Shown here: positions 34,309 through 49,831 of the stretch, piece after piece
Numbering within the stretch: position 1 is the stretch's first letter
Layout: each line of letters starts with the position of its first letter
Origin: an uncultured Eubacteriales bacterium
GTDB taxonomy: Bacteria > Bacillota > Clostridia > Oscillospirales > Oscillospiraceae
Length of the DNA stretch: 64,000 nucleotides
Direction of reading: 5' to 3'
Assembly: GCA_900319275.1 (NCBI GenBank)
Contig: ONNS01000003.1
Coordinates: 19,338-83,337 of the forward strand
Program-made: the position numbers and the translations under genes
Notes under the pieces: model-generated
Told to the model about the DNA's origin: nothing
Database searches by the model: none
The model's input: the letters and a program-made list of their open reading frames with translations, nothing else

Positions 34309-35445
34309 ATGCTCAAGCTTGTCAATATAAAAAAGGACTATCTATCCGGAGATGCAGCGGTACACGCCCTCAAAGGGATCAATCTTGAATTCCGTGAGAG
34401 CGAGTTCGTGGCCATTCTCGGCCACTCCGGCTGCGGAAAAACCACGATGCTCAATATCATTGGCGGTCTTGATCAGTACTCCGATGGAGATCTTATTATC
34501 AACGGCAAATCCACCAAGCGTTTCACCGACGCCGACTGGGACAGCTATCGCAACCATTCGATAGGCTTCGTTTTTCAATCCTATAACCTGATCCCGCATC
34601 AGACGGTGCTTTCGAATGTGGAACTCGCACTGACGATTTCGGGTGTCAGCGCCCGCGAGCGGCGTGATCGCGCGGTGGAAGCCCTGCAGAAGGTCGGCCT
34701 GGGGGATCAACTGCACAAAAAGCCCAACCAGATGTCCGGCGGACAGATGCAGCGTGTGGCAATAGCCCGCGCGCTGGTGAATAACCCGGATATTCTTCTG
34801 GCAGACGAACCAACCGGCGCCCTGGATACCGAGACCTCCGTGCAGATCATGGACTTGCTCAAAGAAATCTCCAAGGACAAGCTGATCATCATGGTCACCC
34901 ATAACCCCGAGCTTGCCATGGACTATGCCAGCCGTATCATCCGTCTGAAAGACGGTCTGATCACTGACGACAGCGCGCCTTTTGCCAGCGAAAAGCAAGA
35001 CCCGCTCAACACCAGCAAGAACAAAAAGACCTCGATGGGTATGTTCACTGCGCTGGCTCTTTCTCTCAACAACCTGATGACCAAGAAGGGGAGAACCTTG
35101 CTGACCGCCTTTGCCGGCAGTATCGGCATCATCGGTATTGCTCTGATCATGTCGCTCTCAAACGGTATTCAGTCCTATATCGACAAGGTGCAGGAGAACA
35201 CACTTTCCAGCTATCCGATCACGATCCAGGCCGAGAGCGTGGATATGACCAGCCTGATGGGTTCGATGATGGGGGCGAGGGCCGAGACGGAAGGATACTA
35301 CCACGAAAAAGACGCTGTCTATTCCAGCTCTGTCATGAACGACATGGTCAATTCCGTTGTATCCGCGGATATGCAGACCAACAATCTCAAGCCCTTCAAG
35401 GCCTTTCTTGACGACGAAAACAGCGAGATCGCCCAGAGTATGTGA
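34309..35445 (+). CDS. ABC exporter, ATPase plus first membrane segment (5' part of a frameshifted gene)
   Basis: The 378-residue frame contains a complete MacB/LolD-type ATPase (about 1-220): Walker [13 protein letters not shown], signature [16 protein letters not shown], Walker [14 protein letters not shown] permease start follows, with one membrane helix ([18 protein letters not shown]) near 265-285. The frame stops at TGA 35443-35445, in the middle of the periplasmic-type domain. The protein sequence continues without a gap in another frame from 35442. AG at 35435-35438 is doubled; removing one AG restores a single reading frame of about 970 codons. The complete family is a fused ATPase-permease exporting lipoproteins, peptides or antibiotics. 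Confidence 0.85.
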
Positions 35446-37232
35446 GCTCTGTTCAGTATTCTTACGATGTCGACGTCATGCCGTATTCCGAAGACCCCGA
35501 GGGCGTGATCGGGCGGACAAATACCGTGGATATCATGACAAAGGCACTGTCCTCTTCATTTGGCGGGGATTATTCCACGTATTTTTCGACCTATGGCAGT
35601 ATGTTTTCCACAATGAACGTCTGGCAGGAGATGCTGCCCGGGGAGAGCGCTGTTGAGCTGATTCACCCGCTGCTGCGCCAGCAGTATGATGTACTCTACG
35701 GCCGCTGGCCGGAGCGCTACGACGAGGTCGTCCTGATCGTCGATGACAACAACGAGATCTCGGATCTGGTGCTCTATTCCCTCGGACTCAAGCCCACATC
35801 CGAGATCGAAACCACTATGGGCTCGATCATGAATGAGGAAGAAATGGAGGTCCGGCAGGAGAGCTGGTCGTATGAGGATATCTGCAATAAGACTTTTCGC
35901 TATATCTACCCGGCAGACACTTTCCAGCTAGATGAGGAGACCGGGAAATACACAGACCTGACGCAGGAAGAGCTGGCGCTGCGCACGCTGTACAATAACG
36001 GCGAGGAGATCCGCGTTGTCGGTATTATCCGCAAGAACAGCGATTCGATCTCCGGCATGCTGAACGGGTCCGTGGGCTATACGCATGCGCTGGTCGAGCA
36101 CATCATCAGCATGGCCGAACAGAAGGAGCTTGTCCGCCGTCAGCGGGACGAGCCGGAGATCGACGTTTTCAACGGCTTGCCGTTTCTGGATCGCGAGAAC
36201 GAGATCTCGGTCACCGATCGAAAGGTCAATGCTGCCAAGCAGTATATCGACGAGGCGACTGTGGAGCAGCGCGCCGAAATGTATGTCGAGCTGATCTCCA
36301 CACCGAGTGACGAGTACCTGAATGATATGCTGGACAAACAGATGGAGGGCACCACCCGCGAGGACATTGAGAAGATGATCCTTGAGTCCTACCCCGAATA
36401 CGCCAGTATGCTCAGCAAAATGGATGACAATACGCTCGACAGCTATCTCAGCCAGATGATCACGCAGCAGGTCAAGGAGCAGTATGCCGCGCAGATGGCC
36501 GAACTGTACAAGGAACTCAGTGACGAGGAGCTTGCCGAGGATTTTGATCTGCTGCCGCTGGAAGAGGACGACTATATCTGGCTTTACGATAACTATATGC
36601 CGCCGGTCTATTCCACGACAACCTTTAAGGACAATCTTAAGAAGCTCGGCTATACCGATCTCGACAGCCCGAAAACCATCAATATCTACTGCGCAAGCTT
36701 TGAAGATAAGGACGCCATTGCGGACGCCATCAAGCACTATAATGACAGTGTGCCCGACGAGGATGAAATCACCTACACCGATATGGTCGCGCTGCTGATG
36801 AGCTCGATCACGTCGATCATCAATGTGATCAGCTATGTGCTGATCGCTTTTGTCGCAATTTCGCTGGTCGTGTCCTCTATCATGATCGGTATTATCACCT
36901 ATATCAGCGTACTTGAACGCACCAAGGAGATCGGTATCCTGCGCGCCATCGGCGCGTCTAAAAAGGACGTTTCCCGTGTTTTCAACGCGGAGACGATCAT
37001 CATCGGTTTTACCTCCGGCGCGATCGGCATCGGGATGACTTTGCTGCTGAACCTGCCGATCAACTGGATCGTGCATGATCTGACCGGTATTTACGCGCTC
37101 AATTCTGTCCTTCCCTGGGAAGGTGCTGTCGGCCTGGTCGCGATCAGCATGTTCCTGACCTATATTGCCGGACTGATCCCTTCCGGCATAGCAGCCAAGA
37201 AAGACCCGGTCGAGGCGCTGCGGACCGAATAA
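35442..37232 (+). CDS. ABC exporter permease (3' part of a frameshifted gene)
   Basis: The 596-residue continuation carries the large extracytoplasmic domain (about 1-440) and the last three membrane segments of a FtsX-like permease (about 455-585: VISYVLIAFVAISLVVSSIMI, TIIIGFTSGAIGIGMTLLLN, VGLVAISMFLTYIAGLIPSG), ending in the typical AAKKDPVEALRTE. As written it begins at a GTG overlapping the upstream stop and has no ribosome binding site of its own, so it is either the second half of a broken gene or rescued by coupled re-initiation. A sequencing or assembly error is equally possible. Confidence 0.8.
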   Translation: MSSVQYSYDVDVMPYSEDPEGVIGRTNTVDIMTKALSSSFGGDYSTYFSTYGSMFSTMNVWQEMLPGESAVELIHPLLRQQYDVLYGRWPERYDEVVLIVDDNNEISDLVLYSLGLKPTSEIETTMGSIMNEEEMEVRQESWSYEDICNKTFRYIYPADTFQLDEETGKYTDLTQEELALRTLYNNGEEIRVVGIIRKNSDSISGMLNGSVGYTHALVEHIISMAEQKELVRRQRDEPEIDVFNGLPFLDRENEISVTDRKVNAAKQYIDEATVEQRAEMYVELISTPSDEYLNDMLDKQMEGTTREDIEKMILESYPEYASMLSKMDDNTLDSYLSQMITQQVKEQYAAQMAELYKELSDEELAEDFDLLPLEEDDYIWLYDNYMPPVYSTTTFKDNLKKLGYTDLDSPKTINIYCASFEDKDAIADAIKHYNDSVPDEDEITYTDMVALLMSSITSIINVISYVLIAFVAISLVVSSIMIGIITYISVLERTKEIGILRAIGASKKDVSRVFNAETIIIGFTSGAIGIGMTLLLNLPINWIVHDLTGIYALNSVLPWEGAVGLVAISMFLTYIAGLIPSGIAAKKDPVEALRTE

Positions 37233-37246
37233 TCAGTAATACAGAG

Positions 37247-37284
37247 TACAGCGACACGGATAGAAGTGCCGCTGTATTCTTTTT
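37247..37284 (+). terminator. Terminator after the ABC exporter
   Basis: TACAGCG (37247-37253) pairs with CGCTGTA (37270-37276), extended by flanking pairs and followed by TTCTTTTT. It separates the exporter from the kinase/TIR cluster. Confidence 0.7.
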
Positions 37285-37309
37285 AAAGACAGTCTAAGCA
37301 AATGTCGTG

Positions 37310-37338
37310 TTGCATACGGAGCAGCGTCTGTGTATACT
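37310..37338 (+). promoter_or_regulatory. Promoter of the kinase/TIR/SLOG cluster
   Basis: TTGCAT (37310-37315) and TATACT (37333-37338), 17-nt spacing, about 60 nt ahead of the HTH gene. Confidence 0.65.
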
Positions 37339-37398
37339 GAAGGCAATAAAGCGAAAAATAGAGAAAACCGATGGATCAGTCTGCATAGGGGTGAGAAC

Positions 37399-37848
37399 AT
37401 GGCCAATATCGTCAACACGAATACGCTTTTGAAACGGCTGTTCAAAGCAACAGATCTTGACACCTATCTGCAGGAAAATGACAGCTACCTGCAAGCGCCG
37501 GATTTCTATACGCTGCTCAGGAGCTTCTGTGAACAGCGGGGCGTGCTCCCGGCACATGTGATCGAGCAGTCTCAGATCGAGCGGACGTATGGCCACCAGT
37601 TGTTTAACGCGACGCGCCGCCCCTCCCGTGATAAGGTGATCCAGCTCGCACTGGGACTCGGCCTGAGCGTGGATGAGACCCAGCGACTGCTGCGTGCGGC
37701 TGGAAAAAGTCAGCTCTACCCCCGGCTGAAACGCGATGCGGTGATTCTTTACGGTATTCAGAAAAAGCTTCCCATTCTCTCTGTGCAGGAGAGCCTGATG
37801 AAATACGGGCTTACGCTGTTGGGAGGGCAGAAAAGTGGAAACGACTGA
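37399..37848 (+). CDS. HTH (XRE-like) protein, partner of the downstream kinase
   Basis: A 149-residue soluble protein. Residues about 55-115 look like a lambda-repressor type helix-turn-helix (HVIEQSQIERTYGHQLFNATRRPSRDK, then LALGLGLSVDETQRLLRAAG). The N-terminal ELLxxLxxATDLDTYLQEN-like segment (residues 8-25) is helical. GGGGTGAG precedes ATG 37399. The stop overlaps the GTG of the kinase by 14 nt, so the two are translationally coupled. It could be a transcriptional regulator of the cluster or an adaptor for the kinase; the sequence does not decide. Confidence 0.75.
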   Translation: MANIVNTNTLLKRLFKATDLDTYLQENDSYLQAPDFYTLLRSFCEQRGVLPAHVIEQSQIERTYGHQLFNATRRPSRDKVIQLALGLGLSVDETQRLLRAAGKSQLYPRLKRDAVILYGIQKKLPILSVQESLMKYGLTLLGGQKSGND

Positions 37849-39553
37849 AAACAGTCTCCAGATCCCGGACCTCCCTGATGAGTCGGAATATCCCGCGGCT
37901 CTGACCCTCGGCTATGAGCTGATGGAATGTTTCTCCGAGAAAGAGAATGTACGGACGCTGCTGGCCGTAAAACGGGGAAGTGGAGATTCATGCGTTGTTA
38001 AATGCTATCTGAAGGACTGCCCGCTGTTTGATCGCAGTGAACCCGAGACGCTGCGTGCGCTCAGGGCTGCGCCGATGCCGCGCTTTCTGGCGGAATACCG
38101 CAATGAACAGATGCGCTGTGTTCTGCGGGAATATGTGCCCGGTGAGACACTGTCACAGCTGGCAAAAAAACAGGTTTTCACAGAGGATGAGGTCATCCGC
38201 ATCGGTGCACAGCTATGCGATCAGCTCTATGTACTGCATACAATGGATCCACCCGTTATTCATCGGGATATCAAGCCCCAGAACGTGATTATCCGCCCGG
38301 ATGGAACCGCTGTGCTGATCGACTTTGGCATTGCGCGCGTCCACTCAGAAAAGGAGACGGACACTGTCGCTTTCGGGACGCAGGGCTTTGCCCCGCCGGA
38401 GCAATACGGCTTTTCGCAGACAGATGCCCGATCGGATATCTATTCTCTTGGAATCCTGCTCAATTGGCTGCTGCACCGTGATACAATGGTCTCGCAAAAC
38501 GGCCGAACCGCACTGGAAAAGGTTATTGCCCGCTGTACACATTTTGACCCTGTCAATCGCTTTCACGACGTTGTGCAGGTAAAGCATGCGCTGCTCAGTG
38601 CAAGGCCGGCTGAACAAAAGAAAAAGAAACGCCTGCGCATAGCTGGCGCATGCCTTCTTCTGCTGTTGATCGCTTTAGGGACGGGGATTGCCATACACCA
38701 TCATCGGCAGTCCTTCACTTTTTCACACCCGCTGGTCGAGCAGGCCGTGAGAGCAAGTCTGGGGTTGGAGAGTCATGCCCGCATTACGAAGGATATGCTC
38801 CGACAGGTGAACGATATATATATCATGGCGGATAAAGCCTATCCGGATTCAGACAGCTTCTATGCCGCCGTTGACCGCTGGTATGCCGAGGGGAAGCCGA
38901 CGCGCGGAACGATTACGGACCTCTCCGACCTTGCGGCCATGCCCAATCTGGAGCAGGTCTGCATCGCTGCCCAGGAACTGACGGACATATCCACGCTGGC
39001 AGCTCTTCCCAAACTCAAAAAAGTGGAGTTCAAGCATAACTATATCACGGATATTTCTGCGTTGACAGAGTTGGACCGTCTGACCTCGGTGGGCATCAAC
39101 GACAATCCGGTGCGGGATATCTCCCCGTTGTCTGCCTGCCCGAACCTTGCGCTCTTAGACCTCTGCGATGTGCGAAGCTACGATCCGTCGGTGCTCGCGC
39201 AGCTCGGCAATTTTGATTTTCTGGACATTTCCAATCCGACCGAGAGCTATCGGTATCTGGACGGAAAAAGCATTCTGGATCTGCGCCTTGCGTGGACAGG
39301 GCTGGATGATCTGCATGTTCTGGATCGCGTGACACGGCTGGAGCGACTGGACATCGACCATACGGAAGTCACGGATCTCTCTCCGCTGGCGCTGCACAAG
39401 GGCTTGAGGGTGTTGAAGCTGGGCAGCCTTTCTGTCACGGATTTCAGCGTCCTGCTGGAGCTGCCTGAGTTGGAGGAGGTATCAGTCAGCGAGGACAGGA
39501 GGCAGGCGATCGAGTCTTTGGGCGACGTACGTTTTACGGTTCGTTACGAATAA
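37835..39553 (+). CDS. Membrane Ser/Thr protein kinase with extracellular leucine-rich repeats
   Basis: A 572-residue receptor kinase. Residues about 25-255 form a Hanks-type kinase domain with the ATP-binding Lys56 (VVKCY), HRDIKPQN (143-150), DFG (163-165) and the GTQGFAPPEQ activation-loop end, so it is probably active. A basic stop (KKKKR) and one membrane helix (about 267-287) follow. Residues about 345-560 are internalin-like leucine-rich repeats outside the cell (LAALPKLKKVEF, LTELDRLTSVGI, LSACPNLALLDL). Start is GTG 37835 after GGAGGG. The layout, kinase inside and LRR outside, mirrors plant receptor kinases in reverse order. A terminator-like hairpin follows. Confidence 0.88.
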   Translation: METTENSLQIPDLPDESEYPAALTLGYELMECFSEKENVRTLLAVKRGSGDSCVVKCYLKDCPLFDRSEPETLRALRAAPMPRFLAEYRNEQMRCVLREYVPGETLSQLAKKQVFTEDEVIRIGAQLCDQLYVLHTMDPPVIHRDIKPQNVIIRPDGTAVLIDFGIARVHSEKETDTVAFGTQGFAPPEQYGFSQTDARSDIYSLGILLNWLLHRDTMVSQNGRTALEKVIARCTHFDPVNRFHDVVQVKHALLSARPAEQKKKKRLRIAGACLLLLLIALGTGIAIHHHRQSFTFSHPLVEQAVRASLGLESHARITKDMLRQVNDIYIMADKAYPDSDSFYAAVDRWYAEGKPTRGTITDLSDLAAMPNLEQVCIAAQELTDISTLAALPKLKKVEFKHNYITDISALTELDRLTSVGINDNPVRDISPLSACPNLALLDLCDVRSYDPSVLAQLGNFDFLDISNPTESYRYLDGKSILDLRLAWTGLDDLHVLDRVTRLERLDIDHTEVTDLSPLALHKGLRVLKLGSLSVTDFSVLLELPELEEVSVSEDRRQAIESLGDVRFTVRYE

Positions 39554-39576
39554 TAACCAAATACAGATACTGCCAA

Positions 39577-39625
39577 GAAAAGCGCCAATGTGTGCCGCCT
39601 GCACACCAATTGGCGCTTTTCTTTT
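39577..39625 (+). terminator. Hairpin between the kinase and HD-RyR genes
   Basis: AAGAAAAGCGCCAAT (39577-39591) pairs with ATTGGCGCTTTTCTT (39611-39625), with a further GTGTGC/GCACAC pairing in the loop, then TTTGC. It may end the kinase transcript or allow partial read-through. Confidence 0.7.
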
Positions 39626-39689
39626 GCTATACTTTTCTATGAGTAATTGTAAGAATATCTACTTTCAAAAATACAGGAGGGATCGAACG

Positions 39690-41708
39690 ATGTCCTATAC
39701 AGCCATTGAAAACATGAGAAAACAGAACATGGAACGGTTCGGCTGTGACCTGGGACCGCAACAGCCGCCGCTATACCATAACCCTGCCGGACAAAATGAT
39801 CTGAAGTCTGCCGCACTGCGTTTTCTCCACGAACGCTGCGAGGGGCTTCTCTTTGATCCGGAAATAGAGGCCAAGGAGCGGCAGACCGGTACGTATCTCG
39901 GCAAGGGTCTCTCAGCCGACCAGATCCCCTATAACATGGAGATGGACATCAACCGGCTCTGTCTCGAAAAGGCGCTGGAAGCCTTTATTGACTCCGGCGT
40001 GGCCGAGGATGCCTATACGGTGTATTACTGCTATCTGGACATGTTCCTGGGGCGCTACGGAAACTCCAAGCGCATGGTGGAGCTGCTGAGCGAGTACGAG
40101 GCCAACGGAAGCTCCCTGCTGATGAAGCACCGGGATCACTATTCCCATTCGGTCTATGTGTTTGCCCTGGGACTTGCGATCTATGAAACCAATGCGGCGT
40201 ATCGGCACAGTTTTCAGTGCTTCTATCATCTGGAAGGGAAAAATGAGAACGAAACAGCCAATCTGTTCCTTGAATACTGGGGATTGACTTCACTCTTTCA
40301 CGATATCGGCTACCCCTTTGAGCTGCCCTTCGAGCAAGTGCTCAGCTACTTTGAGGTGGATCATCAGGAGCGCGGCAAGGGCAGCCTGTACCTGGCTTAC
40401 CATGACGTGGAAGCGCTGACCGGGCTGGACGATGTGGCAAAAGTTCATTTCGAGACGCTGTACGGAAAACACTTTGAGACGACCAGCGAGCTGCTGGCGC
40501 ATGACATTGCGCAAAAGCTCGGCAGTACTTACGATTTCAGCGAGCAGTATCTCCTGGATGTGCTGAATCGAAAGCCGACCGAGCCAAATCGTTTCGGTTA
40601 TTTCATGGATCATGCATTTTTCAGCGCTTCCCGCCTGTATCGGGAACTGGCAGAGGAGCTCGGCGCGGATAATCTTAATCCCATGCATATCGATGCGCTT
40701 TCTGCTATCATGCTGCACAACAGTCTCTACAAGTTCTCCATTGCCTTTTATAAAGACAGAGAAAAACGCAAAGCCCCGCTGAAGGCGGAGCTTCATCCGC
40801 TGGCCTGGCTGCTGATGCTATGCGATGAGCTGCAGTGCTGGGATCGCACCGCCTACGGACGCAATTCCCGCACGGAGCTGCACCCCATGGCCGTTGATTT
40901 TGACTTCTCGGACAGTGCGATCCGCGCCATCTACTACTACGACCGGGAGGAGCAGGAAAAAATCGACGCCTTCAAGCTGAAGTACACAGCCTGGGAAGCG
41001 GGCGGCGAACAGGGAAAGCCGCCGCGCCTGAAGGCCTACAGCGACATGGCGGAAAAGGAGCAGCGCTTTACAGCGGATATTGAAAAAATCGTCGACACCG
41101 GGTTCTGCCCGCTGTATATCCGTCCGGATGTCCGTAAGGTCGACCGCCGGAGCAAACACACCTATCTCTCCGGCAGCAACTTCCTGCATTTATATGATTT
41201 TGCTGTGGCGCTCCACGGGCGCAGGCTGCCGCCAGAGACGACGGCTCAGGAATTGGAGGCCAAATTCAATTCGCAGTCACTGGAATACCAGCTCTCCGGT
41301 ATCAATCGCGCCAAAAGCTTCAGCCGCTATCTCAACGCGCTGGGCTGCTTCTATACGGACAGACCGGTGGATTATGAGATGGTAACAGCCTTCACGAGCG
41401 AACAGGCGCTGCAGATCGCACCGTTGGAGCATGAGCGTTGGGTGCGCGAGCATCAGGCCATGGGCTGGCGCAGCGGATCGGACTATGAGACGCTGCCGCT
41501 CGCTCGGGATGACAAACAGGCGCGGCAGGCGCTTCGCGAGCAGCTGCGCTGCCACAAGCTGGCCATGGACGGGGAACCGACAGATGACGAGATCCGCGCG
41601 CATTTCTTCTCGCTGCCGGAGGAGGATCAGGATAAGGATTGGAAGCCCTTCAACAGTATGCTGAAGCTGCTGAAAAAGTTTGACGGACTTCGGATTTACA
41701 GACTGTAA
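39690..41708 (+). CDS. HD-domain phosphohydrolase fused to a RyR-like domain
   Basis: A 672-residue soluble protein with two recognisable parts. Residues about 140-390 look like an HD phosphohydrolase, with metal ligands among His150/153 (RDHYSHSV), HD204-205 (SLFHDIGYP), His343 and Asp379 (LMLCDELQ). Residues about 535-672 resemble the RyR repeat domain, with INRAKSFSRYLNALG and LEHERWVREHQAMGW. HD domains often hydrolyse nucleotides, and RyR domains occur in nucleotide-signalling conflict systems as possible ligand binders (Burroughs and Aravind type analyses). AGGAGGG precedes ATG 39690. The gene heads the run of six tightly packed genes to 48970. Confidence 0.78.
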   Translation: MSYTAIENMRKQNMERFGCDLGPQQPPLYHNPAGQNDLKSAALRFLHERCEGLLFDPEIEAKERQTGTYLGKGLSADQIPYNMEMDINRLCLEKALEAFIDSGVAEDAYTVYYCYLDMFLGRYGNSKRMVELLSEYEANGSSLLMKHRDHYSHSVYVFALGLAIYETNAAYRHSFQCFYHLEGKNENETANLFLEYWGLTSLFHDIGYPFELPFEQVLSYFEVDHQERGKGSLYLAYHDVEALTGLDDVAKVHFETLYGKHFETTSELLAHDIAQKLGSTYDFSEQYLLDVLNRKPTEPNRFGYFMDHAFFSASRLYRELAEELGADNLNPMHIDALSAIMLHNSLYKFSIAFYKDREKRKAPLKAELHPLAWLLMLCDELQCWDRTAYGRNSRTELHPMAVDFDFSDSAIRAIYYYDREEQEKIDAFKLKYTAWEAGGEQGKPPRLKAYSDMAEKEQRFTADIEKIVDTGFCPLYIRPDVRKVDRRSKHTYLSGSNFLHLYDFAVALHGRRLPPETTAQELEAKFNSQSLEYQLSGINRAKSFSRYLNALGCFYTDRPVDYEMVTAFTSEQALQIAPLEHERWVREHQAMGWRSGSDYETLPLARDDKQARQALREQLRCHKLAMDGEPTDDEIRAHFFSLPEEDQDKDWKPFNSMLKLLKKFDGLRIYRL

Positions 41709-41727
41709 GCAAAGGCGGGACAATACG

Positions 41728-42285
41728 ATGGCAAACCTTGCATCTGTCAAGATTTCCTTTGATAATAAATCGCTGGCGCAGAGTGCTCTTGCCATCGCCG
41801 AGCGCATGATCAAGCTGCTCTATGTGCCGAAAGAGCTGTCCTGGGCGGCGGAGGCCGGAAGCATCCCCGCGCTGAGCAATCGTTATCTCCGTTTTGGCGA
41901 GGAAGCTTCAAAGCTTGACCCGCTCGCTGAGCATCCGAACTGCGCGCTGAAATGGCTGCGGCGGGAGGGAGCGGTGCTCCTTCTGGAGCGCTGTGCAGAT
42001 ATCCAGTCGCCCGTCAATGAATTCTGGCCCGGAGACTTTTTCACGCAGCTGTGTCTTACGCTGTCAAAATGCCTTCCCGAGGCCTGCTTTACGGCTTTCT
42101 GCCGTCATGAGGAGACGGTGAGCGCCACCGTGCAGCTTATTCGGATCACGCATGAGGAGGGCCGGCTTTGTATCACGGAGATGTACAGACTGGATGGGGA
42201 TGAACGGGCCGAGGATGACTGGACGGACGCTGTTCCGGTCGTCCTGCGGGATGTTGACGGTGTTTTCATCATGCCGTCAAGGTAA
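41728..42285 (+). CDS. Protein of unknown function in the TIR/SLOG cluster
   Basis: A 185-residue soluble protein with no family I recognise. It is mixed alpha/beta: a helical N-terminal half (SLAQSALAIAERMIKLLYVPKELSW) and a strand-rich C-terminal half (SATVQLIRITHEEGRLCITEMYRL, VVLRDVDGVFIMPSR). No signal peptide, membrane segment or clear catalytic motif is visible. It starts 19 nt after the HD-RyR stop with AAAGGCGGGA upstream, and ends 6 nt before the first TIR-like gene, so it belongs to the same transcript. It could be a scaffold or specificity factor. Confidence 0.75.
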   Translation: MANLASVKISFDNKSLAQSALAIAERMIKLLYVPKELSWAAEAGSIPALSNRYLRFGEEASKLDPLAEHPNCALKWLRREGAVLLLERCADIQSPVNEFWPGDFFTQLCLTLSKCLPEACFTAFCRHEETVSATVQLIRITHEEGRLCITEMYRLDGDERAEDDWTDAVPVVLRDVDGVFIMPSR

Positions 42286-42291
42286 ACATAT

Positions 42292-43122
42292 ATGAGACAT
42301 CAATGGATGAAACAGCTCCCGCCCTATGAGGGGGATGAGCCTTACCTGTACATTGCTTTTGCCGAGGCAGACAGCAAGCGCGTCTGGAAGCTCCTGCGTC
42401 CGCTGCTGGCGCGGGGCTGCCGGTTGTGGTACTGTGTGGGTCCGGCGGGCAGTGCGGAGGAACTGCTGCACCGGCAGGCGCGCTGCGAAAAAGCGGCGCT
42501 GACCGTGGTATATCTGACGGATGCAGTCTGCGCGGACAAGGATACGAAAAGCGCCGTTCTTGTCAATCAGAAATTCAACCGACCGATCCTCTGTCTGGAC
42601 GTTGATGAAAAGGACCGTCGACTTTCCATGAATCTGCGGGAGACAGTCCCGCATGTTCCCTTATATCAGATGCCAGGCAGGGAATGGGAGAGCGCCGTTA
42701 TACACGCCGAGGGCTTTTCACAGGACATGATCGGCGAGCCGATCCATGTCGGGGATGACGGCAATGTCCTGAAAAAGCTTTCCTTGTTGTTTTGCGCGCT
42801 GGCCTTGCTGCTGTCCGCTGCAGCTTTTGCAGGCTTTTATGTTTTCGAATGGTTTTCCCCTGCGGCGCGGGATGAACTGAAAATCAATGACCACGTGATA
42901 CAGGCCGCGGTGCGGCAGGCTGTGGGAGGAGGAGCGATCACGGTCGAGCGCGCAGGCAAAATCACAGCGCTGCGATGTGGGGAACTGCCGGACAACTGGC
43001 AGGAGCTCTCGCTGCTGCCTGCGCTGGAGCGGATCGAACTGCCGCAGCAGGCGCTGCTGGACGGCGGTGAGCTGCCGGACGGCGACTATGTCATCGTGCT
43101 GCGCGGAGGTGACGGAAAATGA
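42292..43122 (+). CDS. TIR-like membrane protein lacking the catalytic glutamate
   Basis: A 276-residue protein. Residues about 10-130 have the TIR fold pattern (DEPYLYIAFAEAD, then LLRPLLARGCRLWY, LTVVYLTDAVC, NRPILCLDVDE) and align well with the downstream true TIR protein. The helix that should carry the catalytic Glu reads ADKDTKSAVL, with no Glu. A membrane helix follows at about 163-187, then a short extracellular tail (about 190-276), ending in a degenerate LRR-like turn (LSLLPALERIELPQQAL). The stop overlaps the next gene (ATGA). It is probably a non-enzymatic partner of the next protein. Confidence 0.72.
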   Translation: MRHQWMKQLPPYEGDEPYLYIAFAEADSKRVWKLLRPLLARGCRLWYCVGPAGSAEELLHRQARCEKAALTVVYLTDAVCADKDTKSAVLVNQKFNRPILCLDVDEKDRRLSMNLRETVPHVPLYQMPGREWESAVIHAEGFSQDMIGEPIHVGDDGNVLKKLSLLFCALALLLSAAAFAGFYVFEWFSPAARDELKINDHVIQAAVRQAVGGGAITVERAGKITALRCGELPDNWQELSLLPALERIELPQQALLDGGELPDGDYVIVLRGGDGK

Positions 43123-44285
43123 GCGGTTTCTTCAAGCCCTATGAGGGCAGCCGCCCGTTCCTCTTTATCAGCTATGCGCACCGTCAGTCAGACGCCGTCC
43201 TCGATACGATCCGCATCCTGCACGAAAAGGGCTGGCGGCTCTGGTATGACGAGGGCATTCCGGCGGGTAGCGACTGGCCGGCGAATATCGCCCAGCACAT
43301 GCACAGCTGTGAGCGCGTGATTTTCTTCCTTTCCGCGAGGGCGATGGAATCGCACAATTGCTACAGTGAGATGAAAACGGCGGCGCGTATGGGAAAGCCG
43401 ATCCTGATCGTCCGGCTGGATAATACAACGCCGGATGAAAACTGGAAGATAATTCTGGATGGCAATACGGAGATCCCGCTGCTGGATAGTGCCGCATGGA
43501 GAGCCGAAGAGATCCTTCGCTCCGGCTTTCTGCCCCGCCGCCTGCACCGCAGCTGGACAGAGCAGATTTCCTGGCCTGGGCTGGGACTTGTTGCCTCACT
43601 GCTGCTTTTCCTTGCGGCGGCGGGCACGCTTGCGGCGCTGACGACAGGAACATGGAGCCCGAGCCCGGCGGCCGAAATCCCGGCAGAGACGACTGCTCCC
43701 CGTGTGACGCCTACCCCCGTACCCGTTGTGGAGCTGGGAGAGGCGGAGCGCTTCTTCGCCGTCAGCTTCCCCGATAAGCAGCAGGAGCAGGCTATCCGCC
43801 GGGCATTGGATAACCCTGCGGACGCGATCTACCGTTGGCAGATCGCCGAGATCCCGGAGCTTTATTTCTGCGGGAATATGTCGGTGGGCAGCAAGGCCGC
43901 CGTTACCTTCGACGCGGACGGAACCTGCCGCGTCAACGGCGCGCCGGTCATTCAGGGCAAGGTGTCCGATCTGCGCCTGATCGAATCCATGGTCAAGCTG
44001 GAGCGCCTTGCACTGATCTGCCAGCCGCTGGATGACCTGTCCGGCCTGAGCGGGCATCGGCTTCTGCGGGAGCTGAGCCTTGCGGGCAGCAGCGTGGATG
44101 ATTTGACCGCGCTGAGGGAGCTGCCGAGCCTGGAGACGCTGCATCTGGAGTACACCGGCGTGCGTGACCTGACGCCTCTGGAGGCGTTGCCGCGTTTGAA
44201 AACCGTGACGGTCAGCCGGAATATGCTGCCGCTGAGGTGGAGCGAACAGGCCGCCTTCACGGTGGTTTTGATCCGGGAATCCTGA
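43119..44285 (+). CDS. TIR domain-TM-LRR protein with candidate catalytic glutamate
   Basis: A 388-residue protein with an N-terminal TIR_2 domain (about 8-125): FLFISYAHRQSD, EKGWRLWYDEGIPAGSDW, VIFFLSARAMESHNC and Glu84, in the position of the NADase glutamate of bacterial and plant TIRs. One membrane helix (about 152-175) is followed by a Pro/Thr linker and an extracellular part with leucine-rich repeats (about 280-380: VKLERLALICQPLDDLSGL, LPSLETLHLEYTG). The architecture is a Toll-like receptor turned around: TIR first, LRR last. ATG overlaps the previous stop. It is the best candidate effector of the cluster. Confidence 0.82.
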   Translation: MSGFFKPYEGSRPFLFISYAHRQSDAVLDTIRILHEKGWRLWYDEGIPAGSDWPANIAQHMHSCERVIFFLSARAMESHNCYSEMKTAARMGKPILIVRLDNTTPDENWKIILDGNTEIPLLDSAAWRAEEILRSGFLPRRLHRSWTEQISWPGLGLVASLLLFLAAAGTLAALTTGTWSPSPAAEIPAETTAPRVTPTPVPVVELGEAERFFAVSFPDKQQEQAIRRALDNPADAIYRWQIAEIPELYFCGNMSVGSKAAVTFDADGTCRVNGAPVIQGKVSDLRLIESMVKLERLALICQPLDDLSGLSGHRLLRELSLAGSSVDDLTALRELPSLETLHLEYTGVRDLTPLEALPRLKTVTVSRNMLPLRWSEQAAFTVVLIRES

Positions 44286-44306
44286 TTTTTTGAAGGAGGA
44301 TGCGAT

Positions 44307-47300
44307 ATGAGTAAAAAAGTGATCCATCTGCTGTGCAGTGATGCAGACCGCGCAGCACTGCAGCCGGTACTGGACGCGCTGAAAACCAGGGGGCTGCATG
44401 TGTCGGAGGAGACACCGCGGAAAAAGAATCTTGTGCTGGCGGCGCTGTCCGAGCGCTTTTATGCCGATGACAGTAAAACCAAAGCGCTGCTTGACCTTGT
44501 CGCCGCGGGAGCGGAAAACGTGCTGCCGCTGCAGCTGGACAGCGCATCTATCCCGGACGTGCTGAAAAACGCATTGTATTCTCGAAATATCATCCCCGCC
44601 TCCAAGCGAGACGCGGCGCATACCGCCGAGCGCATCGTTGACGCGCTGCCGAAGCGGAAGTCGAAGCTGCCGTTGATTTTGACGGCAGCCGCTATAGTGA
44701 TGATTGCCGTCGTTGCTCTGCTGCTCTGGCAGGCCAATCTGCCCACGGTAGAAGAAGCCGTGCCGGTCGTGGCGGAGCCTGTCGAAGAGATATACATCCC
44801 CGCGGGCCTCACCGAAGAAGATCTGGCCGAAGTCCGCTGCGTGGTCATCGTGGGCGAGCATCTGAAAACCTATACCAAAGAGGACAAGGAGCCCCGGGAC
44901 GACATGTCCGGCGAGTGGCGGGATATGCTCTTTGAGGTCGCCAGCTCCCGGCAGCGCGACGGAACGGATGAATTCGAATGGTACTGGAACGAGGATGGCT
45001 CTCAGGTCTCTCTGACCGCTTATGATCTCCGCTTCCTGTCGCTGCTGCCGAATCTGGAGGAGCTGCACATGGCCATGGTGGACGTGCAGCAGGCGCCGGA
45101 TCTGAGCGATCTGGAGCAACTGGGGGTCGTGTGGGCCAACGAATGTCGTTTGGGAGATCTGGGCTGGCTTGCCGATTCCCGAGCGAACAAGATGCAGATC
45201 CGCTCGCACGCGGACTTTGCCACTCTCGGGCAGAGCGAGTTCCTGCGCGTCGCGATACTGGACAGCTACCAGGATACGCCCACCGATTTCTCTGTCTTCT
45301 CTCCACCGCAGCTACGGGAATTTGACCTTTGCTGCTGGGACATGGACGAGATCGATCTTTCCGGTCTTGCTGCCTGCGAGAAGCTCAGACAGGTCCGTCT
45401 CAGCGGCTGCCCTGCGGAGAATCTGGACTTTCTGTCGGGCCAGACCGGTCTGACCCTGCTGCAGCTGAGATATATGCCCCGGCTGCGGGACATCTCTGCG
45501 CTCTCTGAGCTGACGCAGCTTCGGGAACTGCTGATGGAGGACTGCAATCAGCTGCGGGATCTTAGCCCGATTGCAGGCTGCACAGCGCTGGTGGACTTCA
45601 ACATTGCCTGCGACGACGCCCTCCGACTGCGGGACGTCAGCTTTTTGGGCAATCTGCCAAAGCTGAATGATATCAGCCTTGGCGGGGTGGAGCTGCCAAA
45701 CCTCGACTTTCTCGTCTCGCTTTCTGAAAGCCATACAAGCCTCAACAGCTTTGGCTTTTGGGGATCTATCGGGGACTATTCCGGTTTATCGGCCATCAAA
45801 CAGTATGGATCATTGTCTATCGACCCGGATGACGGCGCCCGTCTGGAGGAAATTTTGCCGTATCTGGAGAATGCTGCGATTCAGGATCTGCAGCTTCGAC
45901 GATTTAAAGAAGTGAATCTCTCAACGCTGCCGCACCCATCCGTCCGTCTGGAGCTGGACCGCTGCGGGATCACGGATCTGAGTGCGCTGCCGGAGGACTG
46001 GAAGGCCTCCCATCTGAATCTGAACAAATGCTCGTCTTTGCAATCTCTGGACGGGCTGCAGAACCAGTCCCGCATCAAGGACCTGGAGGTCTATCTCTGC
46101 CCGCGCCTGACGGACTGGAGCGCGCTGGAGGGGATGAATTTCAGTTCTCTCAGCATCACCGGCGGCTTTACGGTACCGGAAGGTGTGGCGTTCCGTACCG
46201 GGATGCTGCGCCTTGACAGTGTGGCGGAGGTGAACGCTCTGAGCATTCTGGACAGTCTGGACGCGGAAAAGTCCTGCAGCTTCGAGCTGGTCGGTCTGGA
46301 GGATCTGAACAATCTTCAGCCGCTCAGCCGCTTCCACGGAACCTACCTGGCCGTCTCTCCCCAGTTGGCCGAGCAGGCGGAGGATCTGGTGGACGCCGGG
46401 AATTTCCGCGAGTACCGCATCGAATACCCCGAGGGCGGCTGGGAGATGGACGAGATGGAGTATGCCCTGCTGAGCCTGGACGAGCTGGACACCCTGCCTC
46501 CGGCCTTGCTGCGCCGTATTACCAGTGTCTGCATCGCGGGCGATCAGGTCATCGACTTGGACCGCTATGACATCTGGGAGGACTGGGAACACAAGGACGG
46601 GAACGGGAACCCGGCCCTTCAGCTCCACGACCGCGAGACGGACGAGGTGATGCCGCTCTCTCCGGGCGTGTTTGAGGACATGGAAAGGCTCGGTGCATTG
46701 ACCGGCCTGCGGGAGCTGTATCTCTACGGGCAGCCGCTCCAAAGCCTGGACGGCATTCAGATGCTCGCATCGCTGGAGATAATCTCGGCCATGGGCTGCA
46801 GCACTTTGACCGACGCCTCTGCGCTTTTCGCCCTGCCGGAGCTGCGCTGGGTGGATCTCAAATGCACGCAGTTGGATTCCATCCAGGGCGTGCAGAACTT
46901 GTGGGGTCTGCGCTCGCTGAACGTCTCCAACACAAAGGTGGACGATCTGACGCCGCTGGCCGAGAGCGACTTCTCCGCGGCGGAGGAAGACGGCGGCTTT
47001 GACCTGGACTGCAACGAGCTGGACCTGAGCGAGGAGGATTTCGCCGCCATGGCCCACATCCGGCGTTTTCAGGGGCTGGCCTTTACCGACGCCGATCCAG
47101 CTATCTGGATCCCCGCATTGTCCGACTGTGAGATCCAATATTTTGGCGCCGCGGGAGACCTGCACTGCAACGAGGACCTGGCGGCTTTTGCGGCGGATCA
47201 TCCGGAGCTGCGGGCGCTGTTCCTGGGCTGGGCGGAGAATATTACCGATCTGACGCCGCTGCTTGAGCTGGAGAATCTGGAGAGAGTCAGCGTCAATCGG

Positions 47301-47369
47301 GATATGCGGGAGGCCGTTGCAAGCCTCGACGGGCAAAGCTATGGCTTCGAACTGGAGATTCAGGGCTGA
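44307..47369 (+). CDS. Degenerate TIR-like/TM protein with a very large LRR ectodomain
   Basis: A 1020-residue protein. Residues 1-95 are a short, degenerate TIR-like Rossmann domain (KVIHLLCSDADRAALQPVL, ERFYADDSKTKALLDL) without the catalytic Glu. A membrane helix is at about 121-142. The remaining nearly 880 residues are outside the cell and rich in internalin-like leucine-rich repeats (LPNLEELHMAMVDV, LTQLRELLMEDC, LASLEIISAMGCSTLTDASAL), with an acidic, Asp/Glu-rich composition. This is the most likely ligand-sensing subunit. AAGGAGG precedes the ATG; the stop overlaps the SLOG gene start. Confidence 0.8.
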   Translation: MSKKVIHLLCSDADRAALQPVLDALKTRGLHVSEETPRKKNLVLAALSERFYADDSKTKALLDLVAAGAENVLPLQLDSASIPDVLKNALYSRNIIPASKRDAAHTAERIVDALPKRKSKLPLILTAAAIVMIAVVALLLWQANLPTVEEAVPVVAEPVEEIYIPAGLTEEDLAEVRCVVIVGEHLKTYTKEDKEPRDDMSGEWRDMLFEVASSRQRDGTDEFEWYWNEDGSQVSLTAYDLRFLSLLPNLEELHMAMVDVQQAPDLSDLEQLGVVWANECRLGDLGWLADSRANKMQIRSHADFATLGQSEFLRVAILDSYQDTPTDFSVFSPPQLREFDLCCWDMDEIDLSGLAACEKLRQVRLSGCPAENLDFLSGQTGLTLLQLRYMPRLRDISALSELTQLRELLMEDCNQLRDLSPIAGCTALVDFNIACDDALRLRDVSFLGNLPKLNDISLGGVELPNLDFLVSLSESHTSLNSFGFWGSIGDYSGLSAIKQYGSLSIDPDDGARLEEILPYLENAAIQDLQLRRFKEVNLSTLPHPSVRLELDRCGITDLSALPEDWKASHLNLNKCSSLQSLDGLQNQSRIKDLEVYLCPRLTDWSALEGMNFSSLSITGGFTVPEGVAFRTGMLRLDSVAEVNALSILDSLDAEKSCSFELVGLEDLNNLQPLSRFHGTYLAVSPQLAEQAEDLVDAGNFREYRIEYPEGGWEMDEMEYALLSLDELDTLPPALLRRITSVCIAGDQVIDLDRYDIWEDWEHKDGNGNPALQLHDRETDEVMPLSPGVFEDMERLGALTGLRELYLYGQPLQSLDGIQMLASLEIISAMGCSTLTDASALFALPELRWVDLKCTQLDSIQGVQNLWGLRSLNVSNTKVDDLTPLAESDFSAAEEDGGFDLDCNELDLSEEDFAAMAHIRRFQGLAFTDADPAIWIPALSDCEIQYFGAAGDLHCNEDLAAFAADHPELRALFLGWAENITDLTPLLELENLERVSVNRDMREAVASLDGQSYGFELEIQG

Positions 47370-48970
47370 TGGACACAGAGAAAACGATCCCTATTGTCAT
47401 CGGCGTCACCGGGCACCGGGCAATCCGTCAGCAGGATCGCCCGGCGCTTATGGCGGCGGTAAAAGTGGAACTGGAAAAGCTGCGCGCGCTTTGCCCGCAC
47501 TCGCGGCTCGTCATGCTGAATTCTCTTGCGGAGGGCGCTGACCTGCTGTGCGCTGATGCGGCCGAGGCGCTCGATATTCCTGTCGTTGCCGTACTGCCCC
47601 GTGAGCGGGCGGATTACGAGCGGGATTTCGGCGAGGCCGCGCTGGCACGTTTTGCCCATCACTGCGAGCGCGCGGAGCAGGTGTTCGTCTCGCCGAGCAC
47701 AGAACCCCTTCCCCCAGATGGCGTCAGCCGGGCGTATGCGTTCCGGCAGGCCGGGATCTATGTAGCCGCACATTGCCATGTGCTGCTGGCACTCTGGGAC
47801 GGAGAGCCGGGCAAGCATGGCTGCGGCACGGCGGAGGTCGTTGACTTTGCCTGGAAGGGCAGTTATTGTCCCGCAGCCGGCATGTCCCTGCGCTCCGGCA
47901 GCAATGAGGCCGTGATCCATATTTTCACACCGCGGGGAGAACAGACAGACACAGCACCCGGCACAGTGCAGGTGCTTGGAAGCAGAGAGACGGTCCTGGA
48001 CATTATTCACAGGACGGATGACTTCAATCACAATGCCTCCAAAGTCTCGTCGACAGAAAACTCCCGCCTTCCCGAAGGGCATGACAGGGATCCCATACTG
48101 GAAAGAATAGAGACGATCAGTCGTACAGCCGGTAAACTGAGCCGTCAATACGCCCGGCTGTATCGGCGTGTGCTGGCATTGCTCGCTGTGGCCAGCGCGC
48201 TGCTGACCTTCGCGTTTTTGATGTACGATGAAGCGCAGGCGATCTGGATGATCCTCGTGTGCGGTATGATGCTCCTCTCTGCCTGGGCTTGTCAACGCTA
48301 CGCTGTGCGCTCGGATTGCCACAGACGGTATATCGAATACCGGGTCCTTGCCGAATGCCTGCGGGTACAGACTTATCTTCGCTATGCCGGAAGCCGCGTT
48401 CAGGTCTCCGAGCTGCTGTCGTGGACGCAGCAGGAGGAGACCGCGTGGATCCTGGACGCACTCTGCGCCCTGACGATCGGAAACGTGCCGGGAGAGGCCC
48501 ATGACATTCGCTCCTGTTGGGTGGAAGCGCAGAGAGATTACCATCGGCAAGCCTGTAAAAGTGCCGGGAAGAAGCTTTCCGCCAGCGAGCGCACTGTGCG
48601 TTTCGCGCTGTTCCTGAGTGTTGGGCTCTATCTTCTGGGCGTGGGCTATGAGCTGTTGTGCGGTGGGCTGATTTTCCGGCCGTCACTTATAGTGGCGGAT
48701 GTGGAGCTCTGGCGCACGGTCTTGAAGATCCTGATAGGGACGATCTCTGCCGTGACGCTGTTCGTGGCAAATTTCTATGGGCGACTCTCCCTGCCGCGGA
48801 CGCTTTCCGACCATCAGAAGATGGAACGGTTTTATACGAATATGACAGCAGAGATGGAAAAGCACGGGCAGACAGAGGCTCTTTTGAGAGTGCTCGCCAG
48901 GGAAGAGCTGACCGAAAACGGCAACTGGTGCTCCTATCAGCGGGATAACAAACCGGATCTTTCGCTTTGA
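47369..48970 (+). CDS. SLOG-domain protein with four membrane segments
   Basis: A 533-residue protein. Residues about 7-190 match the SLOG (SMF/DprA-LOG) Rossmann superfamily: IVIGVTGHRAIR at 9-20, LNSLAEGADLLCADAA at 50-65, and RQAGIYVAAHCHVLLALWDG, which bind nucleotide ligands in the family. Two membrane-helix pairs follow (about 267-285 and 291-308; 410-430 and 450-470), with a SLATT-like helical segment between and the tail EELTENGNWCSYQRDNKPDL. SLOG plus membrane-helix modules are proposed effectors in nucleotide-dependent conflict systems. The ATG overlaps the previous stop. Last gene of the cluster. Confidence 0.78.
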   Translation: MDTEKTIPIVIGVTGHRAIRQQDRPALMAAVKVELEKLRALCPHSRLVMLNSLAEGADLLCADAAEALDIPVVAVLPRERADYERDFGEAALARFAHHCERAEQVFVSPSTEPLPPDGVSRAYAFRQAGIYVAAHCHVLLALWDGEPGKHGCGTAEVVDFAWKGSYCPAAGMSLRSGSNEAVIHIFTPRGEQTDTAPGTVQVLGSRETVLDIIHRTDDFNHNASKVSSTENSRLPEGHDRDPILERIETISRTAGKLSRQYARLYRRVLALLAVASALLTFAFLMYDEAQAIWMILVCGMMLLSAWACQRYAVRSDCHRRYIEYRVLAECLRVQTYLRYAGSRVQVSELLSWTQQEETAWILDALCALTIGNVPGEAHDIRSCWVEAQRDYHRQACKSAGKKLSASERTVRFALFLSVGLYLLGVGYELLCGGLIFRPSLIVADVELWRTVLKILIGTISAVTLFVANFYGRLSLPRTLSDHQKMERFYTNMTAEMEKHGQTEALLRVLAREELTENGNWCSYQRDNKPDLSL

Positions 48971-49048
48971 AAAGACTTTTAATCTGACAGACAGCATACA
49001 ATGTAGAATTTTGCAGCGGCAGAGCACTGACGCAACGAGCATAATTAA

Positions 49049-49083
49049 ATCCCCGCCGCCGGTTTTCAACCGGCAGCGGGGAT
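49049..49083. terminator. Hairpin between the SLOG gene and the trpZ-like pseudogene
   Basis: ATCCCCGC-CGCCGGTT pairs with AACCGG-C-AGCGGGGAT around a short loop at 49049-49083. The tails are only weakly T-rich, so efficiency is uncertain. Confidence 0.6.
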
Positions 49084-49101
49084 CGAAGTTTGTGGATGAG
49101 A

Positions 49102-49831
49102 TCAGGAGAGAAGGATCCGGTCGTTGTCCATGATCGCCTTGGTCTGAGCTTTGAAGCGCTGGGCCAGATCGTCCACACCGAGCTTGCTTCGCTCTTCTCC
49201 GGCAATATCCAGGACAATATGGCCGTCAGCCATCATCAGCGTGCGGTTTCCGAGCTCCAGGGCCTGGGACATGTTGTGCGTGATCATCAGACAGGTTATG
49301 CTGTTGTCAGAGACGATTTGTGTCGTCAGCTGCAGCACCTTCTCGGCGGTGGCGGGGTCGAGAGCGGCCGTATGCTCGTCGAGCAAAAGGAGTTTCGGCG
49401 TGACGATCGTCGCCATCAGCAGCGTCAATGCGCTGCAGGCGATCGCGGAACAGGGCTTTATCGGCTTTTGAGATGTGAGAGAACGGCGATGTGCCGCTGC
49501 TGCTGCGCAGATAGGCCAGCGAGAGGTTTTCCTCGATCGTCATGTGTGGGGCCGTGCCGCGCAGCGGATCCTGGAACAGACGGCCGATGCTGCGGCTGCG
49601 CTTGTGATCCGGCAGGAAGGTCACATCCTGCCCATCGAGAAGGATACGCCCCTCGTCGACAAAGAAATTACCGGCAACGGCGTTGAAAAGTGTGGATTTT
49701 CCGGCGCCGTTCGAGCCGACGATCGTTACAAATTCGCCGCGGTCGAGATGCAGGGAGAGCTTTTGCAGCGCACATTTTTCATTGACTGTGCCGGGGTTGA
49801 AGGTCTTGGAGATACCACGGATCGTCAGCAT
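49102..49831 (-). pseudogene. Broken ABC transporter ATPase gene (trpZ-like)
   Basis: Two frames together make one ABC ATPase. The first (from ATG 49831) covers the N-terminus, Walker A GSNGAGKSTLF and Q-loop FQDPLRGTAPHMT, and runs normally to KADKALFRDRL. The second, in another frame, covers ALTLLMATIVTPKLLLLDEHTAALDPATA (Walker B) to the end near 49102. The roughly 20 residues that should join them, including the LSGGQ signature, are missing at about 49430-49445, and the frame is shifted. The total of 730 nt is about 59 nt shorter than intact family members. As written it cannot form an active ATPase; an assembly deletion is an alternative. Confidence 0.85.

Follow-up and report, generated by a model that had tools for sequence, protein, structure and literature searches.

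An inserted island encoding an HD-RyR protein and TIR-LRR and SLOG-type membrane proteins as a candidate TIR-signalling conflict system in an uncultured Oscillospiraceae bacterium

The window analyzed here is a 64,000-nucleotide stretch of contig ONNS01000003.1 from an uncultured bacterium of the Oscillospiraceae. It contains an 11.9-kb insertion (37229–49100) that houses eight genes, A to H, which follow one another on the plus strand from the start of A at 37399 to the end of H at 48970, as the initial annotation had described. In the closest relative found (genome G035, locus L126), the syntenic site lacks the insertion. In blastn comparisons, L126 matches the window up to 37228 and resumes from 49101, and at this empty site 78 bp separate two convergent flanking genes. 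The UvrB protein of the relative is 98% identical, yet its genome, which is 81% complete, has the empty site and no match to C or H. Signs of transfer of the island between lineages can also be read from the sequences, as C is shared with another genome (G064) at 88%, with UvrB at just 75%. The intergenic gaps are −14 (A/B), 136 (B/C), 19 (C/D), 6 (D/E), −4 (E/F), 21 (F/G) and −1 (G/H), so the six genes between 39690 and 48970 are indeed tightly packed. Comparison of the two 270-bp island ends revealed one 9-bp inverted match and no other repeat, profile searches of the eight island proteins gave no integrase match, and C was not found in plasmid records at E ≤ 1e-8. A scan for promoters and terminators returned 11 promoter-like elements (4.6 expected) and 12 terminator-like elements (9.2 expected); it was not used as evidence.

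Gene A (37399–37848, plus strand) encodes a small HTH protein, likely a regulator, whose HTH_31 match of 24.2 bits lies under the cut-off of 27. Across 101 genus genomes, seven close homologues of A (E < 1e-60) are found, its own copy included, and all seven are located inside islands with C; at E ≤ 1e-6, homologues occur in 44 of the 101 genomes and are mostly remote. Gene B (37835–39553, plus strand) combines a Ser/Thr kinase (Pkinase, E = 3.4e-27), in which the HRD and DFG motifs are visible by eye, with a transmembrane (TM) segment (aa 269–287) and an LRR ectodomain (LRR_4, E = 1e-15). Seven K or R residues precede the TM segment and one follows it. Gene D (41728–42285, plus strand) encodes a 185-aa protein that is not assigned to a family, as nothing in Pfam exceeded its cut-off; a FANCI-like match was below the cut-off and was dropped. 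At two other loci (L026 and L047), D precedes DUF4062-NACHT-TPR genes.

Three TIR-like membrane proteins had been proposed for the island, and they differ in how clearly this label applies. Gene F (43119–44285, plus strand) is a clear case, with a TIR domain (TIR_2, E = 2.1e-16), a TM segment (aa 155–173) and LRRs (LRR_4), and it is the single TIR_2 match in its own genome (G000). F keeps the conserved residues S78, N80, C81, S83 and E84, and the catalytic-type Glu84 is present in 18/18 members. Gene E (42292–43122, plus strand) encodes a TIR paralogue with a TM segment (aa 163–181) and a short ectodomain. Its homology to F is well supported by hhalign (98.3%, E = 2e-14), Pfam TIR_2 is weakly seen in 2/17 members, and the catalytic-type Glu is found in none of the 17. 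Gene G (44307–47369, plus strand) has a weakly TIR-like N-terminus, which also lacks the Glu, followed by a TM segment (aa 123–141) and a long LRR ectodomain (LRR_4, E = 5e-22); in profile comparison, its N-terminus scored 74% against E and 7% against F. PDB matches of E and G were taken as chance. The proposed production of a messenger from NAD thus narrows to F, which could in principle use NAD, with E and G devoid of the Glu.

The LRRs are predicted by the positive-inside rule to lie outside the cell. This placement agrees with the earlier suggestion that the LRR ectodomains sense a surface signal, in which the sensing step itself is an interpretation. The median pN/pS is 0.61 in the ectodomain of G versus 0.19–0.46 in other regions, and the fast-changing part is the middle of the LRR ectodomain. 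In some relatives, the islands carry a duplicated G.

Gene C (39690–41708, plus strand) encodes a protein without TM segments, in which profiles and residues point to an HD phosphohydrolase (approximately aa 130–400) followed by a RyR domain (approximately aa 556–672). In a profile comparison with solved RyR domains, the best match had E = 1.5e-10. By itself, the C protein of the window is under the cut-off for both Pfam RyR (PF02026) and Pfam HD; at E ≤ 0.1, RyR is detected in 7 and HD in 5 of 21 C members. The HD motif and further metal-ligand residues (H150, H153, H204, D205, H308, H343 and D379) are invariant in 28/28 C proteins, and so are the RyR residues H581, W584 and D650. By spacing and profile alignment, the latter correspond to H75, W78 and D117 of RyDEP, a phage RyR protein that cleaves 2'/3'cADPR via its H..W..D residues according to the available part of the report (PMC13232231). 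No column near the phosphate-binding His100 of RyDEP is all-His in C; the long form has His622 in 21/28 and His638 in 20/28 proteins, and the short forms have neither. The predicted model of C gave no significant Foldseek match, and its RyR part was modelled at low confidence. A ParB_C match in C was taken as chance. In L025 and L051, C seemed to be fused to an upstream part of 1,050 aa; this was rejected, as the open frame overlies a divergent TIR-WD40 gene.

Gene H (47369–48970, plus strand) encodes a SLOG domain (aa 1–210) joined to four TM segments that are weakly DUF4231/SLATT-like, and it is a putative messenger-gated membrane effector. Its predicted model (pLDDT 80.7, pTM 0.81) has the SLOG Rossmannoid fold, and YAcAr is weakly detected in 16/21 members. 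Among PDB structures, Foldseek placed YpsA first (2nx2, E = 7.7e-5) and DprA next (E = 1.3e-3), which bears out the SLOG assignment. H reached 19.6 against DUF4231 (cut-off 24.7), a match weakly seen in 17/21 members at E ≤ 0.1, and 16.4 bits against NCBIfam SLATT_3 (cut-off 45). The motif residue Glu156 is kept in 16/21 members. The YpsA-like SLOG clade is said to contain cADPR sensors in the accessible text of PMC9503650. The idea that the RyR and SLOG domains bind a messenger gains plausibility, as the residues of C and the modelled fold of H make both proteins plausible ADP-ribose readers.

The constant unit of these islands is HD-RyR together with a TIR or TIR-like gene. In six genera, at least one HD-RyR copy adjoins a TIR gene or a gene with DUF4062, a reported TIR-like NADase (PMC13174449, available text). 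In two distant genomes (G784 and G866), the sole TIR_2 match of each genome and the HD-RyR gene share an overlap of 4 bp. Among 20 genomes chosen by the analyst from 31 with C, TIR_2 lies within 7 kb of HD-RyR in 17, against 0.37 expected by chance, and a partner is found in 19 when DUF4062 is counted as well. From reading the maps, the cluster includes a TIR, DUF4062 or E/F/G gene at 28 of the 33 HD-RyR loci that could be assessed, so homologous clusters do not consistently lack TIR genes. The remaining five (L053, L055, L057, L059 and L061) have no TIR nearby, and in one genome (G051) the closest TIR_2 match is 19 kb from C. L025 had appeared to be a C-H locus without TIR, a reading rejected because of the TIR-WD40 gene under the open frame.

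H usually accompanies HD-RyR in this genus. A match to H was found in 20/149 genomes, all of them C carriers, and the nested co-occurrence of C and H is significant (p = 8e-16, assuming 91 genus genomes and ignoring relatedness). H is not universal: 5/25 C-bearing genus genomes have no H match, orphan H genes exist (L033, L034, L038 and L108), and the other genomes sampled from the order yielded no full-length H. The region between C and H contains swappable cassettes, namely the TIR trio, DUF4062-NACHT-TPR or kinase/WD40-TIR, and D, DUF4062-NACHT and A-B are variably present. This variation would suit a chance neighbourhood of unrelated systems within a defence island. Such an explanation is highly improbable and already largely contradicted by the overlapping genes, the C-H co-occurrence and the repeated pairing of C with TIR or DUF4062 across six genera. 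Since the cluster recurs in relatives, the grouping is not due to chance, and the view of a single co-inherited, mobile island is supported.

The reading that is somewhat favoured is that of a TIR-signalling conflict system, mobile, modular and probably immune, which would be Thoeris-like in its NAD-derived messenger and would differ in its reader and its surface LRR receptors. B, E, F and G would sense a surface cue through their LRR ectodomains. Clustering would then allow F, the sole Glu-bearing TIR, to turn NAD into an ADP-ribose-type messenger; E and G may act as non-catalytic partners of F, and the kinase B may tune the threshold. The messenger would be bound by the RyR of C and the SLOG of H, as their residues and fold suggest, and the outputs would be nucleotide hydrolysis by the HD domain and permeabilization of the membrane by the four helices of H. 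The match of RyR residues to RyDEP, the proximity of TIR_2, the DUF4062 NADase partner, the YpsA-like H and the confinement of H matches to C carriers favour this reading. The TIR-less C loci, C without H, the orphan H genes, the absence of a fixed His100 equivalent, the model of C with its low-confidence RyR and no significant fold match, and the incomplete conservation of Glu156 in H count against it. The predicted outside location of the LRRs also counts against it, because known bacterial TIR systems, as far as the available sources describe them, sense phage proteins such as portal or capsid inside the cell.

Two readings of the HD domain exist, signal degradation, as first proposed, and an effector output. 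Under the former, C could be an off-switch: RyR would hydrolyse or sponge the TIR product, HD would clear the breakdown product, and the executioner would be H only, or NAD loss through F. This is a possible, though rather unlikely, alternative. In its favour, the HD ligands are invariant, and RyDEP, which has this H/D dyad in its RyR domain, acts as a cADPR glycosidase, with tested relatives that are binders, according to the accessible text of PMC13232231; however, L130, L132 and L131 have C with TIR or DUF4062 and without H, which would leave the NADase as the sole effector. Plain NAD depletion, in which F or DUF4062 kills and RyR and SLOG merely gauge ADP-ribose for a threshold, is doubtful. 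DUF4062 Swarozyc works through NAD depletion (PMC13174449, available text) and the catalytic-type Glu is kept in F, but two separate putative ADP-ribose-binding genes are maintained, one joined to four membrane helices.

The ectodomain pN/pS of G, the transfer signs and a divergent C-H pair that adjoins a TIR gene in a prophage, at the end with the integrase, count for the conflict-system reading, within which the immune label of the initial annotation is still an interpretation. The same chemistry might instead serve surface recognition of neighbouring bacteria, kin or envelope damage, which is unlikely but agrees with the predicted extracellular LRRs, the fast-changing and sometimes duplicated G, and the presence or absence of the island among close relatives. 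The prophage-borne pair speaks against a non-antiphage role, as does the reported antiphage member in the family of the alternative cassette gene (PMC13174449, available text); a broader role in conflict would account for both as well.

The island, read as a TIR-signalling conflict system, could belong with the known anti-phage systems as an undescribed relative. Like Thoeris, it has a TIR gene with a catalytic-type Glu beside a SLOG-bearing putative effector and a predicted ADP-ribose messenger. Unlike Thoeris, in which ThsA is SIR2-SLOG or macro-TM, the eight island proteins have no SIR2 or macro match; SLOG is joined to four TM helices, the partner that stays constant is HD-RyR and the TIRs are membrane LRR proteins. 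CBASS also differs, as no SMODS-type nucleotidyltransferase match was found among the eight proteins. The content of LRR, TM and TIR is shared with animal Toll-like receptors, but the chain order is opposite, with the island TIR N-terminal, and an independent origin is likely. TIR-SLATT pairs of Firmicutes phages likewise combine TIR with a SLATT-type membrane protein and at times an HTH gene, whereas their description, in the available part of PMC9503650, includes no SLOG fusion, RyR, HD or LRR receptors. RyDEP resembles C in its RyR domain, which has the H..W and D residues and a connection to TIR-made signals, but it serves phage counter-defence (PMC13232231, available text), while C is a host gene, HD-fused and TIR-linked. 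DUF4062, the domain of the Swarozyc NADases (PMC13174449, available text), is the alternative signal-domain partner of C in L026, where it occurs in fusion with a NACHT-like ATPase, and in L047 and L131; the window has no DUF4062. A literature search found no description of this gene combination, and nothing related on Thoeris type III, IV or VI.

A more specific picture, which is put forward tentatively, is a Toll-like bacterial pathway: hypervariable outer LRRs would gate a cyclic-ADP-ribose-making TIR, the receivers would be an RyR-gated HD hydrolase and a SLOG-gated four-helix pore, and HD-RyR with TIR would form the minimal unit, present across several families of the phylum. The RyR domain, for which a 2026 report on phage proteins described an action on TIR-made cADPR (PMC13232231, available text), is now tied to a host TIR neighbour and an enzymatic domain. 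Because host HD-RyR occurs beside a TIR gene as a two-gene unit (L130 or L132), the function of bacterial RyR is directly testable. Bacterial receptors of the TIR-TM-LRR type, in which the ectodomain changes fast, would mean sensing at the cell surface, in contrast to the intracellular sensing of phage proteins by the bacterial TIR systems in the available sources, and, if true, an RyR-gated HD nucleotide hydrolase would be a new class of TIR effector.

The eight genes of the island lie on one strand at 37399-48970, as the initial annotation had laid out, and this arrangement was confirmed, with successive gaps of -14, 136, 19, 6, -4, 21 and -1. They are designated A (HTH), B (kinase-TM-LRR), C (HD-RyR), D (of unknown family), E (a TIR paralogue with TM), F (TIR-TM-LRR), G (weakly TIR-like TM-LRR) and H (SLOG-4TM). 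Pfam recognized a kinase and LRRs in B, TIR_2 and LRRs in F and LRRs in G, and all its matches to A, C and H were sub-threshold. In PADLOC, B matched kinase models, F matched six models (top ThsB, E=2e-4) and H had a single weak match, with no match for A, C, D, E or G. Most of the remaining domain assignments were settled with profiles built from relatives. With such a profile, C matched solved RyR domains at a best E=1.5e-10, E matched the F profile at 98.3%, and the N-terminus of G appeared weakly TIR-like (74% against E and 7% against F). Glu84 of F is conserved in 18/18 F proteins; none of 17 E proteins has a Glu at the aligned position, and no Glu is conserved at the corresponding place in G. 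The predicted structure of H (pLDDT 80.7, pTM 0.81) consists of an alpha/beta domain plus helices, and its top match in the PDB was YpsA, followed by DprA. A simple hydropathy script gave four TM segments in H and one each in B, E, F and G. Because Lys/Arg residues are in excess on the N side of the TM in these four proteins (N side:C side 7:1, 2:1, 3:0 and 5:0, respectively), their LRRs are predicted to lie outside the cell.

The residues of C were compared in 28 near-full-length proteins from 35 loci, seven partial proteins being excluded. In these 28, the HD ligands are invariant, as are E580, H581, W584, W593 and D650 of the RyR domain, and G592 is replaced by Ala in one protein. According to PMC13232231, H75, W78, D117 and H100 are used by RyDEP, phage RyR-domain proteins that act on cyclic ADP-ribose. 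The first three were mapped onto C by H..W spacing and profile alignment. For H100, no column holds a His in all 28 proteins; in long-form C, His622 (21/28) and His638 (20/28) lie near its position.

The 35 C loci comprise 25 from the genus, two titled Lachnospiraceae without an established genus (L026, L027) and eight from other genera or IMG/VR contigs. When two loci cut by contig ends (L056, L127) were left out, C was clustered with a TIR, DUF4062 (a reported TIR-like NADase family; PMC13174449) or E/F/G gene in 28 of 33, the exceptions being L053, L055, L057 (decayed), L059 and L061. The commonest arrangement is C-E-F-G-H, with E-F-G-C-H in L046 and L060, and G occurs in two or three copies in L040, L044, L052 and also L031, whose C lies beyond the contig. 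A D-DUF4062/NACHT-TPR block stands between C and H in L026 and between C and the E-F-G trio in L047. L050/L109 carries phosphatase, RlaP, D, kinase-WD40, TIR-TPR, calcineurin-like and TIR genes, and in L025/L051 a divergent TIR-WD40 gene adjoins C-H. In other genera, C is followed by LRR_5 and two TIR genes (L105), faces a TIR-TPR gene (L106), directly precedes a broken TIR gene at 12213-13302 (L107, in the one-contig genome G198), shares a 4-bp overlap with a TIR-LRR gene (L130, L132) or is followed by DUF4062 and TPR genes (L131). The DUF4062-NACHT and TPR-like genes near HD-RyR (L026:4220-9168, L047:6336-11287, L131:5830-11053) replace the TIR trio or stand beside it.

TIR_2 was also counted in 20 genomes hand-picked from 31 carrying C. 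It lies ≤7 kb from C in 17/20, with 0.37/20 expected by chance (P 4e-29, assuming independent genomes, which these are not). A DUF4062 gene is closer to C in G088 (TIR_2 at 7.7 kb) and G822, and no TIR_2 occurs within 19 kb of C in G051. At least one case of C near TIR_2 or DUF4062 was found in each of six genera.

C was detected in 26 of 149 relatives, namely 25 within the genus and G136, a weak RyR-only match; a shorter form, 31-35% identical, occurs in G079, G086, G051 and G005. H was present in 20/149, every one also carrying C, and therefore five of the 25 C genomes (G005, G030, G040, G044, G065) had no H match. F at E<1e-60 was likewise found in 20/149, 19 with C (exception G078). Fisher tests on these distributions assumed 91 genus genomes in the sample, an inferred number, and ignored kinship. 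All seven close homologues of A among 101 genus genomes are located in C islands, and 37 further genomes have remoter homologues only. Among 394 order genomes, C matched in 14, strongly in four (the window's own, G324, G215, G198), and full-length H was confined to the window's own genome, four other matches being short. Across 398 phylum genomes, C reached E<=1e-12 in five, including the RyR-only G589. Orphan H genes were observed in L108:9337-10938 (G064), L033, L034 and L038, with no C or TIR trio adjoining in the stretch examined. G050 retains decayed pieces of C (L057:12700-13800) and H (L113:9559-10028), and the island seems to be being lost there.

The flanking genes, an upstream ABC permease and a downstream ABC permease of a different transporter, were searched in 101 genus genomes. 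In G035, whose UvrB is 98% identical to that of the window's genome, a single contig carries both, separated by 0.9 kb that includes an ATPase gene. This contig aligns with the window through 37228 and resumes at 49101; the extra segment is therefore 37229-49100, and it sits between two convergent genes. C and H had no match in G035, a genome only 81% complete. A strong permease match (E<1e-230) was obtained in 15 further C genomes: in 14 of them C and the permease fall on separate contigs, so that contig breaks could mask proximity, and in G064 they are 137 kb apart. The island is taken to have moved by horizontal transfer, because G064 has the lowest UvrB identity (75%, among 18 near-full-length matches) yet the highest C identity (88%, among full-length matches in other genomes), and G035 is close yet without the island. 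The flanking ABC genes of the window (34309-37232; 49102-49831) are each broken into two frames, which reflects either assembly error or decay; in G035 (L126) they are single frames of 1007 and 265 aa.

Mobile-element settings were found elsewhere. On the IMG/VR contig L129 (1-8129), a divergent C-H pair and a TIR gene adjoin two integrase-family genes at one end of a prophage, and holin, endolysin and tail genes are also present; the H of this pair is 36% identical and its C is cut by the contig end. In L127, C stands next to two recombinases, an actin-like gene and a MobA/MobL relaxase. The window island itself showed no integrase, recombinase, relaxase or phage gene of these kinds. On another viral contig, an F-like TIR gene (L134:10007-11119) follows genes that by eye are lysis-like and integrase-like.

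Median pN/pS was 0.19 for HD, 0.27 for C, 0.36 for RyR and 0.31 for H; for the TIR or TIR-like domain and the ectodomain it was 0.28 and 0.42 in F, 0.34 and 0.46 in E, and 0.43 and 0.61 in G. These values, from 8-10 sequences per gene, are not formal selection tests because synonymous sites are close to saturation. Between the window and L039, identity is 87.5% in C, 83% in the G N-terminus and 51% in the G ectodomain. In 40-residue blocks, G is 25-55% identical to L039 and L041 at about residues 120-720 and 65-90% beyond, and 40-62% identical to L058 throughout.

No description of a system combining HD-RyR and TIR was found among the openly licensed papers listed by the literature searches; an earlier mention of HD-RyR is possible in Burroughs et al. 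2015, which reportedly treats SLATT and SLOG networks and is cited in related literature (PMC9503650, PMC7159879, PMC7016017). Given the linkage, the residues and the fold, the best reading of the island, towards which we lean slightly, is that it may encode a messenger route leading from TIR to RyR/SLOG.
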